A stretch of 35,626 nucleotides of DNA from positions 1-35,626 of the IMG/VR virus record IMGVR_UViG_3300020451_002774. One strand, given 5' to 3'. The translations under genes were made by a program, and so were the position numbers. Under the pieces are notes generated by a model, which was not told where the DNA came from, did not search any database, and worked only from the letters and a program-made list of their open reading frames with translations. Below are positions 22,401 to 27,531 of the stretch, in pieces. How positions within the stretch are numbered: the first letter of the stretch is position 1; each line of letters opens with the position of its first letter. This DNA comes from a virus.

Positions 22401-22817
22401 ATGGCACTGGGCCGCGAACTGATCATCAAACGCAAGAACGACGCTACGGAATCATTCGACATCGTCTGTGTTGTCGAACAGCGTTCACTCAACATCAACA
22501 ACGAAGAGGTCGACACCACGAAACCGGATTGTGACAACCCGGGCGGTGTTCTCCGGTATTCGTCGATCGGCGGAGTGCAGTCTGTGCGCTGGTCCGGCTC
22601 CGGCGCCTATGTCAGCTCGGCTACCCAGGCGCTTGTGCTGGAGGATATACTTGCCCAGACGCTCGCGGAGTATCAGGTATCGGTGCCCTCTGTTGGGATT
22701 TTCGAGGGTTTCATGAGGATACTTTCTGCGAATTTCCAGGGTGATAAAACCGGCGAGCTTACCTGCGATCTCTCCGGCGTCTTCGATGGGGACGTCGCCT
22801 TCGAGGCGGCAGCTTAA
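22401..22817 (+). CDS. Major tail tube protein
   Basis: A 138-residue protein that polymerises into the tail tube. The beta-rich layout fits phage tail tube proteins (gpV N-domain or TP901-1 type): start ALGRELIIKRKNDATESF, then VVEQRSLNINNEEVDTT, and a NFQGDKTGELTCDLSGVFDG stretch near the end. The ATG has AAAGGAAC upstream. It lies directly before the tail chaperone pair and tape measure, the usual position. The stop overlaps the chaperone start (TAATG). There is no C-terminal Ig-like domain such as the one in lambda gpV. Confidence 0.85.
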   Translation: MALGRELIIKRKNDATESFDIVCVVEQRSLNINNEEVDTTKPDCDNPGGVLRYSSIGGVQSVRWSGSGAYVSSATQALVLEDILAQTLAEYQVSVPSVGIFEGFMRILSANFQGDKTGELTCDLSGVFDGDVAFEAAA

Positions 22818-23224
22818 TGACGGCGTTCGCCAACGAACTGCGCGGCGAAGCGGCGGTGACGATCGGCAAAGAGAACATCGTTGTTGCCGTCACGTTTGCC
22901 GGCCTGATGCGCTTGTCACAGGCCATCGGCGCCCGGACCATGGACGAGGTCTATCAGCGGCTGCTCGGCTTCGAACCTTTCGCGGTATCGTGTGCGATCC
23001 GCTGTCTTGCCGTTGCCGACGATGACGAGGGCAGGGCAGAGATTGCCGCCCGGGTGTTGTCCGGCAAAAACATCTCGGCCGCTGACCATGCAAGTTGGCG
23101 CACTGGTATCGAAAAAGCGCTGACCGCCCATATAGAGGCCGGCAACCAATTGCGGCAAACCTCGTCGCCGCTGGAAGATGTGGAGGCCGCCGTCACCGGA
23201 AAAAAGCCTCAACCGGCGTCCTGA
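22817..23224 (+). CDS. Tail assembly chaperone (gpG-like)
   Basis: A 135-residue tail assembly chaperone in the place of lambda gpG. Its beta-first, helix-after layout (AAVTIGKENIVVAVTFAGLM, then helices such as EIAARVLSGKNISAADHASW) resembles gene transfer agent TAC proteins. It coats the tape measure before tail tube polymerisation. Its last codons contain the slippery heptamer A AAA AAG in the zero frame, so a fraction of ribosomes should continue into the downstream frame to make a longer GT-like protein. The start overlaps the tail tube stop. Confidence 0.82.
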   Translation: MTAFANELRGEAAVTIGKENIVVAVTFAGLMRLSQAIGARTMDEVYQRLLGFEPFAVSCAIRCLAVADDDEGRAEIAARVLSGKNISAADHASWRTGIEKALTAHIEAGNQLRQTSSPLEDVEAAVTGKKPQPAS

Positions 23225-23230
23225 TCGCCG
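23200..23230 (+). promoter_or_regulatory. Programmed -1 frameshift signal
   Basis: The heptamer A AAA AAG lies at 23200-23206 exactly in the zero frame of the first chaperone ORF (GGA AAA AAG). Seven bases downstream is a hairpin (CGGCG at 23214-23218, CGCCG at 23226-23230, seven-base loop that includes the zero-frame stop). A Shine-Dalgarno-like TGGAGG lies 13 bases upstream (23181-23186), as in Escherichia coli dnaX. Slip site, spacer, hairpin and upstream stimulator together make this a complete -1 frameshift cassette. Confidence 0.82.
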
Positions 23231-23442
23231 ATCACGTCCGGACGCTGTTCGAACTCGCGGTCGCTTCCGAGCGGCTCAACTGGTCGCCGGCCACCTTCTG
23301 GGCCGCCACGCCCTCCGAACTCTCCATGGCCATTGCCGGCGTTGCGGGGAGGTCCGCACAGACCTCTCCTGTAAGCCATACTCGCATTCGCGAGATCGTC
23401 GCCGGCCATGGTTCGCAAAAGTCCATCCGCAGGAAAGCATAA
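23206..23442 (+). CDS. Tail assembly chaperone -1 frameshift extension (T part of G-T)
   Basis: Seventy-eight codons in the -1 frame from the slippery site, ending at 23442. The stretch around LFELAVASERLNWSPATFWAATP resembles the phage tail chaperone family related to Rhodobacter gene transfer agent gp10.1. There is no ATG, GTG or TTG start close to its conserved region, so it should be made only as a C-terminal extension of the preceding protein (about 130 plus 78 residues, 208 in total), like lambda gpGT. Such fusions recruit the tail tube subunit to the tape measure. Separately encoded gp10.1-like proteins exist elsewhere, so independent translation cannot be excluded by reading alone. 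Confidence 0.78.
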   Translation, partial: ASTGVLIADHVRTLFELAVASERLNWSPATFWAATPSELSMAIAGVAGRSAQTSPVSHTRIREIVAGHGSQKSIRRKA

Positions 23443-23447
23443 CCGAG

Positions 23448-25430
23448 ATGAGCAGACCGGACATTCCAGTCACGATCGGGGCGGACGATCGCGAGTTCAA
23501 GGGCGCGATGACCCGGATACGGATGCAAGCCCGCACGGCGGCCAATGACACGGCGAGTTCGTTCCTGTCGATCAAATCGAAGATTGGCGGAGCGGACTCG
23601 CTGTTCGGCATGCTCTCCGGCGGGCCGGGTGGCCTTGCCGCTTCACTTGGCATCGGTTCATTCGTGGCGGCAACGCAGCAGGCGGTCGATGCGGTGACGG
23701 ATCTCGGCAAGGCCGCAAAGACCGCCGGCGTAGATTTCGAGGCCTTCCAGGAACTGCGATATGCGGCCGTGAAGAACAAGGTTGGGGTCGACGCGCTGAC
23801 CGATGGCCTGAAAGAGATGCAACTCCGCGCGGATGAATTCGTGAAGACGGGCGGCGGTTCTGCCGCAGAAACCTTCGAGCGTCTCGGCCTCTCTGCCCGG
23901 CAACTGACCCGGATGCTGGAAGATCCTGCAACGATGTTCGAAACCCTGATTGGCAAGATCATGGAACTCGACCGTGCGGCGCAAATTCGAGTGCTTGACG
24001 AGTTGTTCGGCGGTACCGCTGCCGAGCAGTTTTCGTCTCTGATGGATGATGCAGGACAGAGCATTGCCGACGCCCGTCAGGAAGCCCGCGATATGGGCGC
24101 CGTCATGGATGAGGAGTTGCTGCGTAAGGCGGAGGATGTGAATGCAGAATGGGAAGCGATGTCACTTGTCATCGGAACCCGGGTCAAATCCAGCCTGGTA
24201 GAAATTAGTGGGCTGGTATCGGCGCTCGTATCGAACCTTGGTTCTTTTCGAAAGTCGCTCGACGAGGTTCTGGAGAAGGCCGGCAATGCGGATATCTGGA
24301 CGGGCCTTGGAAACATGTTCGGCGTCGATATGGGGCAGAAGATGGTCTGGCGCGACGGGGAAGGGTGGGTGCCCGACGATAGCGGCGGTACGACCGAGCT
24401 TGATCCCATCGGCGTCGAGACGCGCCGAAGCGCCTCCGATGATTATGCAGACTACAATGCCGGTCGGGAAATTCTGGAAGAAAAGCTTGCGGCAAACCGC
24501 GCCGTTACGGCCGAGCTTCTGCGCCAGAATGGGATGACGTCCGATCAGCTTGCCCTTGAAAAGGAAATGGCAGCAGTTCGGAAACTCTATGAGGATGCGG
24601 GCGGCGCGCCGACGGAGGAAATGATCCGGGCTGAGGCCGAGGCCCGCCTTGCGGCCAGAGCTTCGCGTGACGCCAGCCAGAAGGCAAGCCGGACGGCAGC
24701 GCAGGATGCGGCGAAGGAACGCGAAGCGGTCGATGATCTTATCCAGGCATTGCAGGACGAGTTGCAGATGCTTGGAATGACGGCAGAGGAAAAGAAAGCA
24801 TTCGAGAGCCTTCGCCGTGCCGGCGCGGCCGCGACCGATGACGAACGGGAAGCGATCCGCGATCTGACCCATGCGATCGAGGATCAGAAAGACAAACAGG
24901 AGCAGGCCGCCGAAACTGCTGACTTCTTCCGTGACAGCGCCCGCGATAGCTTTCTATCACTGATACCTGTGATCGAAACCGGCAATGATGCACTCGACAG
25001 GCTGATCAGCCGGTTGATGGAAGCCGCTGCGCAAGCCGCATTGTTCGGTGATGGGCCACTCGGCGGATTGTTCGGCGGTGGCTTGCTTGGTGGGCTGTTG
25101 CCTGCCCATGCGACCGGAACGAATTTCACCCAGGGTGGCATGGCACTCGTCGGCGAGCGGGGCCCGGAACTGGTGAACCTGCCGCGCGGTGGTGAGGTGA
25201 TACCACGACATCGCATCGGAACCGGGCTTTCCGCAGGTGTCGCCAACGCCAGCGGTACGGTCAACAATATCAATCTCGGTGGCATCAGTATCGCGGTGCC
25301 CGAAGGTACGAGCCCGAACGACGCTGCGGCCATCGCGCGCGAAGTGCGTTCGCAGATCGATAATTTCTCGCGCCATGAGCTGCCCGGCCGGATACGGCAG
25401 ATCCAACGCAATCCGAACAGGGTCGGCTGA
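23448..25430 (+). CDS. Tail tape measure protein
   Basis: A 660-residue protein that sets tail length and goes into the cell with the DNA. The N-terminus has repeated helical stretches, a small hydrophobic glycine-rich region (FGMLSGGPGGLAASLGIGSF) and TAGVDFEAFQELRYAAVKN; the centre is a long coiled coil with Ala/Glu/Arg repeats (about 430-560). The C-terminus carries the usual end of short siphovirus tape measures (FTQGGMALVGERGPELVNLP then GGEVIPRH). From the rule of about 0.15 nm per residue the tail should be near 100 nm (inference). ATG 23448 is preferred to longer in-frame starts since it follows the chaperone stop. Confidence 0.88.
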   Translation: MSRPDIPVTIGADDREFKGAMTRIRMQARTAANDTASSFLSIKSKIGGADSLFGMLSGGPGGLAASLGIGSFVAATQQAVDAVTDLGKAAKTAGVDFEAFQELRYAAVKNKVGVDALTDGLKEMQLRADEFVKTGGGSAAETFERLGLSARQLTRMLEDPATMFETLIGKIMELDRAAQIRVLDELFGGTAAEQFSSLMDDAGQSIADARQEARDMGAVMDEELLRKAEDVNAEWEAMSLVIGTRVKSSLVEISGLVSALVSNLGSFRKSLDEVLEKAGNADIWTGLGNMFGVDMGQKMVWRDGEGWVPDDSGGTTELDPIGVETRRSASDDYADYNAGREILEEKLAANRAVTAELLRQNGMTSDQLALEKEMAAVRKLYEDAGGAPTEEMIRAEAEARLAARASRDASQKASRTAAQDAAKEREAVDDLIQALQDELQMLGMTAEEKKAFESLRRAGAAATDDEREAIRDLTHAIEDQKDKQEQAAETADFFRDSARDSFLSLIPVIETGNDALDRLISRLMEAAAQAALFGDGPLGGLFGGGLLGGLLPAHATGTNFTQGGMALVGERGPELVNLPRGGEVIPRHRIGTGLSAGVANASGTVNNINLGGISIAVPEGTSPNDAAAIAREVRSQIDNFSRHELPGRIRQIQRNPNRVG

Positions 25431-26485: not shown

Positions 26486-27109
26486 ATGAAAAACGTCTCT
26501 GCATCATTTATGGCGGCGCTTACCGGCGCGCGCGAGAACGGGCTTGTTGTCCGGTCGCTGGTCTATGTGACGGCGCGGGAACGGGCGACGGGTGTTCCGG
26601 TTTCGCTCGGCTTCTGGACCGGGGGCGAGGATCTGGATATCGACGTGATCGACGGCGAGAGCGGCGCGATCGTGACGCGGACCTATCTCGGCGACGTCAA
26701 TCTTGACGTCCAGGAAATCCCGCGGGTTTCCGACATGACGATCCAGACGATCGATATCCGGCTTTCGCAGATCGCGCCGGCTGTTCAGCAGCTTGTGCGC
26801 GGCTGGGACGCGCGGCTTGCGGCCGTCGAGGTGCACCAGTTGCTGATCGATCCAGCGACGGGGCAGGCGGTCGGGCCGGCGGAAATCACGTTCCTCGGCG
26901 TTGTGGACGGCGAGCCGGTGGCAACGCCTGCGGCGGGCGAGGAGGGCGGGATCACGCTCAATGTGATCTCGGCCGCGATCGCGATGCTTTCGCGCACCAA
27001 TCCGCTGAAATCCTCCTATGAGGGCCAGAAGCGCCGGCAGGATGATCAGTGGGGCCAATATTCCGGCGTTGTCGAGAACTGGGATATTCCATGGGGGCGG
27101 GACGCATGA
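26486..27109 (+). CDS. Tail hub / gpL-position protein
   Basis: A 207-residue protein between the distal-tail-like and NlpC-like genes, the position of lambda gpL and of hub proteins in gene transfer agents. The N-terminus (FMAALTGARENGLVVRSLVY) and the C-terminal KSSYEGQKRRQDDQWGQYSG, then a WDIPWG end, are recalled features of this phage family. The centre has strand-rich segments such as IQTIDIRLSQIAPAVQQLV. It contains no cysteine at all, so it cannot hold the iron-sulfur site of lambda gpL. AGGAAAGAG precedes the ATG. It is coupled to the next gene by ATGA. Confidence 0.7.
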   Translation: MKNVSASFMAALTGARENGLVVRSLVYVTARERATGVPVSLGFWTGGEDLDIDVIDGESGAIVTRTYLGDVNLDVQEIPRVSDMTIQTIDIRLSQIAPAVQQLVRGWDARLAAVEVHQLLIDPATGQAVGPAEITFLGVVDGEPVATPAAGEEGGITLNVISAAIAMLSRTNPLKSSYEGQKRRQDDQWGQYSGVVENWDIPWGRDA

Positions 27110-27531
27110 AAGAGCTTCAGCGTATCGATGGATGGCGGGCGCGGTTTGATGTCGCCTGCGATGATATGCGCCGCACGTCGTTTTCGTGGGGTGAACATGA
27201 TTGCCTTGTCGGGTTGGTCGGCAATCTGGCTGAAGCGCTGACGGGAGAGGATATCGTTTCACCCTGGCGGCAGCGTTACACCTCCGGCGTCGGCGCGCTG
27301 CGCGTGCTGCGCAATGACGGCTTTGCCGATCTCGGCGGTCTCGTGGCAACGATCCTGCCGGAAATCCATATCTCCCGCGCCCGCCTCGGCGATGTCGCGG
27401 CCATTCCGTCCGATGACGGTTTCGGGTTCGCGCTCGGCGTCGTCAACGGCGAGCGCATCTTCGTCCTGCAGCCGTCCGGCTTCGGAACGGTCGATCTTCT
27501 GAACGCAACGCGCGGCTTCCGCATCGGGTAA
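27106..27531 (+). CDS. DUF6950/NlpC-like tail protein (gpK position)
   Basis: A 141-residue protein in the position of lambda gpK, whose homologues have NlpC/P60-type peptidase domains. C33 lies in WGEHDCLVGLVGNLAEALTG, the usual spot for the catalytic Cys, and the rest (WRQRYTSGVGALRVLRNDG, then ARLGDVAAIPSD) is typical of the DUF6950 family. As I align it, the later strand FALGVVNGERIF lacks the catalytic His, so the enzyme may be inactive and serve only as an assembly protein. It starts in an ATGA overlap and ends two bases before the J-like gene. Confidence 0.75.
   Translation: MKELQRIDGWRARFDVACDDMRRTSFSWGEHDCLVGLVGNLAEALTGEDIVSPWRQRYTSGVGALRVLRNDGFADLGGLVATILPEIHISRARLGDVAAIPSDDGFGFALGVVNGERIFVLQPSGFGTVDLLNATRGFRIG

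Follow-up and report, generated by a model that had tools for sequence, protein, structure and literature searches.

Architecture of the cassette

A Martelella prophage very probably encodes a programmed −1 frameshift cassette of the lambda type, in which a single start would serve two tail assembly chaperone products. The cassette, recognized here from its sequence, lies on the plus strand of a 35,626-nucleotide stretch of viral DNA (IMG/VR record IMGVR_UViG_3300020451_002774), the whole of which is called the window below. It sits between the tail tube and tape measure genes, which is the gene order of lambda-type tails. The tail tube gene (22401-22817) encodes a 138-residue major tail protein of the TP901-1 type (Pfam Phage_tail_2, E 3.8e-13; PHROG major tail protein), and the tape measure gene (23448-25430) encodes 660 residues (PHROG tail length tape measure protein, E 5.2e-114; Pfam PhageMin_Tail). 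The zero-frame ORF for a G-like chaperone of 135 residues (22817-23224) begins with an ATG at 22817 that overlaps the tail tube stop codon and ends with a TGA.

Near the end of this ORF, codons GGA AAA AAG at 23198-23206 set the slippery heptamer A AAA AAG (X XXY YYZ; 23200-23206) in the zero frame; its distance to the TGA at 23222 is 22 nt. A 7-nt spacer, CCTCAAC (23207-23213), follows the heptamer, and an SD-like TGGAGG precedes it by 13 nt (23181-23186). An open −1 frame extends from 23083 to its stop at 23440-23442 and supplies a T-like extension of 78 codons past the slip (23207-23442). The sole ATG, GTG, or TTG 5′ of its conserved part is a TTG at 23095, 105 nt before the heptamer, and joining the two frames gives a G-T fusion of 208 residues. 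An earlier note on this DNA had picked out the same elements from the letters alone: the zero-frame heptamer, the 7-base spacer, the TGGAGG 13 bases upstream, the downstream ORF without a start near its conserved part, and a fusion of about 208 residues. Each of them is where that description placed it.

The proposed mechanism follows from this layout. The majority of ribosomes would terminate at 23224 and release the 135-residue G-like protein, and a minority would slip from AAA AAG to AAA AAA at 23200-23206 and continue to 23442, yielding the 208-residue fusion. By analogy with lambda, both forms would coat the tape measure protein, with the tail tube protein recruited by the T-like end. We infer the slip itself, its efficiency, and the chaperone function of the products, and the evidence throughout is comparative.

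Identity of the two proteins

The downstream protein is readily assigned. It matches Pfam Phage_TAC_6 (PF09550) with 33.0 bits (E 8.1e-8), above the curated cut-off of 23.4, and a profile-profile comparison pairs it with g10.1 of gene transfer agents (GTAs) at 97.7% (E 2.3e-12). The upstream protein scores 16.8 bits (E 0.0072) against Pfam Phage_TAC_11/GTA-gp10 (PF11836), below the curated cut-off of 27.8, yet profile-profile comparison with GTA g10 gives 95.9% (E 5.3e-9 over 48 columns). Homology of the upstream protein to GTA g10 is thus supported at the profile level despite the low Pfam score. Taken together, the position between the tail tube and tape measure genes and the TAC_11 and TAC_6 matches argue for a chaperone pair of the lambda G/GT type. 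Experimental support for a tail role of GTA-gp10 comes from a rhizobial tailocin whose activity was reduced or lost in a series of deletions, with the GTA-gp10 gene among those deleted (PMC10811719).

The upstream protein was also compared with the HK97 gp13-type chaperones by structure. The model of the upstream protein is fair (pLDDT 81.9), and it has no significant match in PDB or BFVD. The HK97 gp13-type chaperone 2OB9 is weakly listed (Foldseek E 2.1, VIA Z 2.9), and the weak matches to viral structures include several tail assembly chaperones, with E values of 0.04 and up.

The surrounding gene order resembles that of a lambda-like prophage, and the related Sinorhizobium phage phi2LM21 has lambda-type portal, decoration, and capsid genes. 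Martelella hosts have separate loci that match TAC_11 over the cut-off, and at one of these loci the tail tube protein is of the GTA type. In a Martelella alba genome (L027, 1357-2040), a TAC_11 protein carries an in-frame C-terminal extension within a single ORF and may be a G-T fusion that needs no frameshift. Elsewhere in the window, a DUF6950 protein (27049-27531) is encoded between tail genes; its ORF overlaps the preceding one by about 60 nt if the first GTG is used, and its real start is probably later.

Conservation of the slip site

How much weight can the window heptamer bear by itself? Of synonymous re-draws that follow the codon usage of the window, 6.5% have a perfect in-phase heptamer (Y = A or T) within the final 45 nt, so the window site alone is not decisive and relatives are needed. 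The Martelella-type set comprises 12 prophage contigs, plus eight Martelella genome loci, found in scans, that are largely the same as the contigs. AAAAAAG or AAAAAAA stands at the same place in all 12 prophage loci. A profile scan adds a sister clade of the phi2LM21 type, with 63 more loci and 51 distinct junctions, and in 48 of these junctions G GGA AAG precedes the stop by exactly 22 nt. The three exceptions are a locus with CTG GGG AAG (L176), one with a base change that brings an early stop (L194), and one with an indel (L200). The second of these, in a phi2LM21-type prophage (L194, 2501-2830), is a natural loss of the slip site, with the change inside the heptamer creating an early TGA.

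The related phages thus either keep the heptamer at its position or substitute another slippery one, a conservation that the earlier note had proposed to look for. The residues encoded at the site vary among them (GKK, AKK, or GK). Retention of slipperiness while both the letters and the encoded residues change argues for selection on the slip itself. Once conservation in relatives is counted, the heptamer is far beyond chance.

The exchange of heptamers also bears on transcriptional slippage, in which RNA polymerase would add or drop an A and part of the mRNA would be read through in the other frame. The window and its close relatives have runs of six to seven As, which would suit such stuttering. 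However, the sister clade has GGGAAAG at the same place, where the longest run is three, and GTA relatives have CCCTTTN or AAACCCT sites. All of these suit tandem tRNA slippage rather than polymerase stuttering, and the polymerase explanation is extremely improbable.

The main rival to frameshifting is termination and reinitiation. Ribosomes would stop at the TGA (23222-23224) and restart at a CTG (23221-23223) that overlaps it as CTGA, making a separate T-like protein and no fusion. This candidate −1 frame restart codon is apparent in the sequence, and p43 of phi2LM21 is annotated from the matching CTG position. The conserved TCCTGAT at the stop of the relatives contains the CTG, CTGA is retained in nearly all of them, and the strongly conserved residues L-I-x-D start at the CTG codon. 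Moreover, Rhodobacteraceae GTA homologues do restart at an overlapping ATGA, GTGA, or TTGA. CTG is a poor start codon, however, and among the 75 relatives in the two clades no intact locus has improved it to ATG, GTG, or TTG at this place, whereas start-type GTAs use ATGA, GTGA, or TTGA almost throughout. Nor does any intact relative in either clade have an ATG, GTG, or TTG close to the conserved −1-frame segment. Reinitiation would also leave the in-phase heptamers, and the exchange among AAAAAAG, AAAAAAA, and GGGAAAG, unexplained. Restart at the CTG is accordingly rated highly improbable.

Frameshifting is further favored by comparable slip sites in GTA homologues that lack a start (see below). 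The points against it are the CTG that overlaps the stop in all relatives, the 6.5% chance level, and stimulators that differ by clade.

Candidate stimulators

Two hairpins and the TGGAGG have been considered as stimulators of the frameshift. The 5-bp hairpin that holds the stop in its loop (CGGCG-TCCTGAT-CGCCG, 23214-23230), on which the earlier note had relied, is present in the window, but one of its pairs is broken in seven of 12 distinct relatives. It is rejected as a conserved stimulator and is probably not functional; a larger hairpin fits better. The latter pairs 23213-23225 with 23236-23248 (feature span 23213-23248), with 11 of 13 pairs formed in the window and 91.7% of cells paired across the Martelella clade. 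Folding relative to shuffled sequences is strong in several relatives (z −4.4 to −6.1) and weak in the window (z −1.84). A covariation test in the Martelella clade yields one-sided changes only, hence no proof, and most of the sister clade has no clear hairpin. The larger hairpin is therefore better supported than the 5-bp one within the Martelella clade only, where these alignments make it a possible stimulator.

The TGGAGG, another possible stimulator, is retained by most Martelella relatives, differs in two (L010 and L011), and is absent from phi2LM21. It is rejected as a general stimulator, since its conservation ends at the Martelella clade. No stimulator is common to both clades.

Comparison with known frameshift systems

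In lambda, overlapping ORFs lie between the tail tube and tape measure genes, the second in the −1 frame, with a slippery heptamer, GGGAAAG, near the end of the first. A low-level −1 slip generates gpG and gpGT (Levin 1993; Xu 2004 and 2013; reviewed in PMC5009743), and this mechanism is well known and widely spread (PMC5009743). The window pair resembles it in its overlap, its gene position, its heptamer near the end of the first ORF, and its second ORF in the −1 frame, and the sister clade carries lambda's own GGGAAAG. The window proteins differ in belonging to TAC_11 and TAC_6, which are not visibly the lambda G and T families by sequence, and in a heptamer that reads AAAAAAG; the window cassette is also known from sequence alone.

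The closest described counterpart is the homologous pair p42/p43 of phi2LM21 (MF614627), which occupies the same place (50% and 32-34% identical). Its heptamer differs from that of the window, with G GGA AAG 22 nt before the stop, and the pair is annotated as two separate genes, p43 beginning at the CTG. At least one public record thus presents a TAC_11/TAC_6 pair as two genes with a CTG start.

Frameshifts have been reported for Caulobacter and Rhodobacter phages. In phiCbK-like Caulobacter phages, gp93/gp94 form a tape measure chaperone pair with a reported −1 frameshift on AAAAAAC, replaced by GGGAAAC in Colossus (PMC3556154). By this published description they, too, have an alphaproteobacterial phage chaperone pair with a −1 frameshift, although these are large prolate phages. 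The window cassette seems to be one more case of a widespread phage device, whereas the slip-site pattern in GTAs is seemingly unreported.

Slip sites and starts in gene transfer agents

GTAs of the RcGTA type encode homologues arranged as in the window: tail tube, g10, g10.1, and tape measure. A total of 131 g10/g10.1 junctions, one per genome, were compared from a class-wide alphaproteobacterial sample and narrower groups. The family closest to RcGTA was chosen by tail tube sequence (6TBA) and is presumably Rhodobacteraceae. In these Rhodobacteraceae-like GTAs, g10.1 has its own start in 29/29 junctions and an in-frame heptamer in 0/29, unlike the window pair, and Paracoccus records agree that g10.1 is started separately. 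The earlier statement that the downstream protein is made as a separate gene in Rhodobacter-type GTAs therefore holds. Homologues that lack a slippery site and start the second gene separately, the combination which that note had named as contrary to its reading, do occur among distant GTAs and are absent among intact close relatives.

Outside this family, many GTAs resemble the window in having in-frame heptamers and no start. Junctions were classed as startless when g10.1 is in the −1 frame with no ATG, GTG, or TTG from −45 to the FxW motif that opens TAC_6. An in-frame X XXY YYZ is present in 59 of the 61 startless junctions, mostly as CCCTTTC/T/G, AAACCCT/C, AAAAAAC, or GGGAAAG, compared with nine of 68 GTA junctions that have a start (Fisher p 2e-22, relatedness ignored). 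Forty-seven of the 61 contain zero standard starts all the way from the preceding stop to the FxW motif. Heptamers in the startless set number 83 in phase versus three and three out of phase, a bias to which protein constraint (P-F-x-W) adds. The Phe codon of FxW is TTT in 51/57 startless loci and 16/35 loci with a start (p 8e-6); a control Phe in a later FW motif is mostly TTC in startless and start loci alike. For part of one order, initiation at a GTG or TTG just 3′ of the FxW motif is possible.

A tree with weak support requires at least 14 changes of the slip/start state. A tree-corrected pair test of the association between heptamers and missing starts leaves four independent pairs on well-supported branches and is underpowered (median p 0.5), so the Fisher values stand with relatedness ignored. 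On this comparative evidence, −1 frameshifting is probably the usual route to a g10-g10.1 fusion in many alphaproteobacterial GTAs outside Rhodobacteraceae, with sites that turn over among CCCTTTN, AAACCCT, GGGAAAG, and AAAAAAC, and an independent start in the RcGTA lineage. The link between the lambda G/GT plan and GTA tails that the earlier note had suggested is borne out, and is stronger than that note supposed, to the extent that many g10/g10.1 pairs outside Rhodobacteraceae carry slip sites.

RcGTA is the experimental model for GTAs, and its lineage seems to lack the frameshift. A search of the open-access literature found no reports of frameshifting in GTA g10/g10.1, and the terms chaperone, frameshift, and g10 are all absent from the RcGTA structure paper (PMC7296036). 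If other GTAs need the frameshift, g10.1 would be misannotated or missed in them, the ratio of G to GT in GTAs would become directly testable, and lambda-type recoding, overlooked by annotation, would remain necessary for particles kept by their hosts. The switch between start and slip inside single orders offers a natural experiment on gain and loss of frameshift cassettes.

Individual GTA junctions show further variation. In Paracoccus ferrooxidans pFER4 (L080, 2817-3050), the g10.1 frame seemingly lacks one base compared with L079 and is thereby disrupted; the region has no annotated gene. The GTA of Martelella radicis itself (L287, L023, and L097) has a junction without a start codon or a perfect heptamer, with only C CCT TCC before the TAG. 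In Hyphomicrobiales, a recurring AAACCCTC motif directly precedes the g10 stop (L091, L295, L299, L303, L313, L315, L316, and others). It reads A AAC CCT in the zero frame and K-P-S in the −1 frame, and from its sequence it looks like a second slip-site type beside CCCTTTN.
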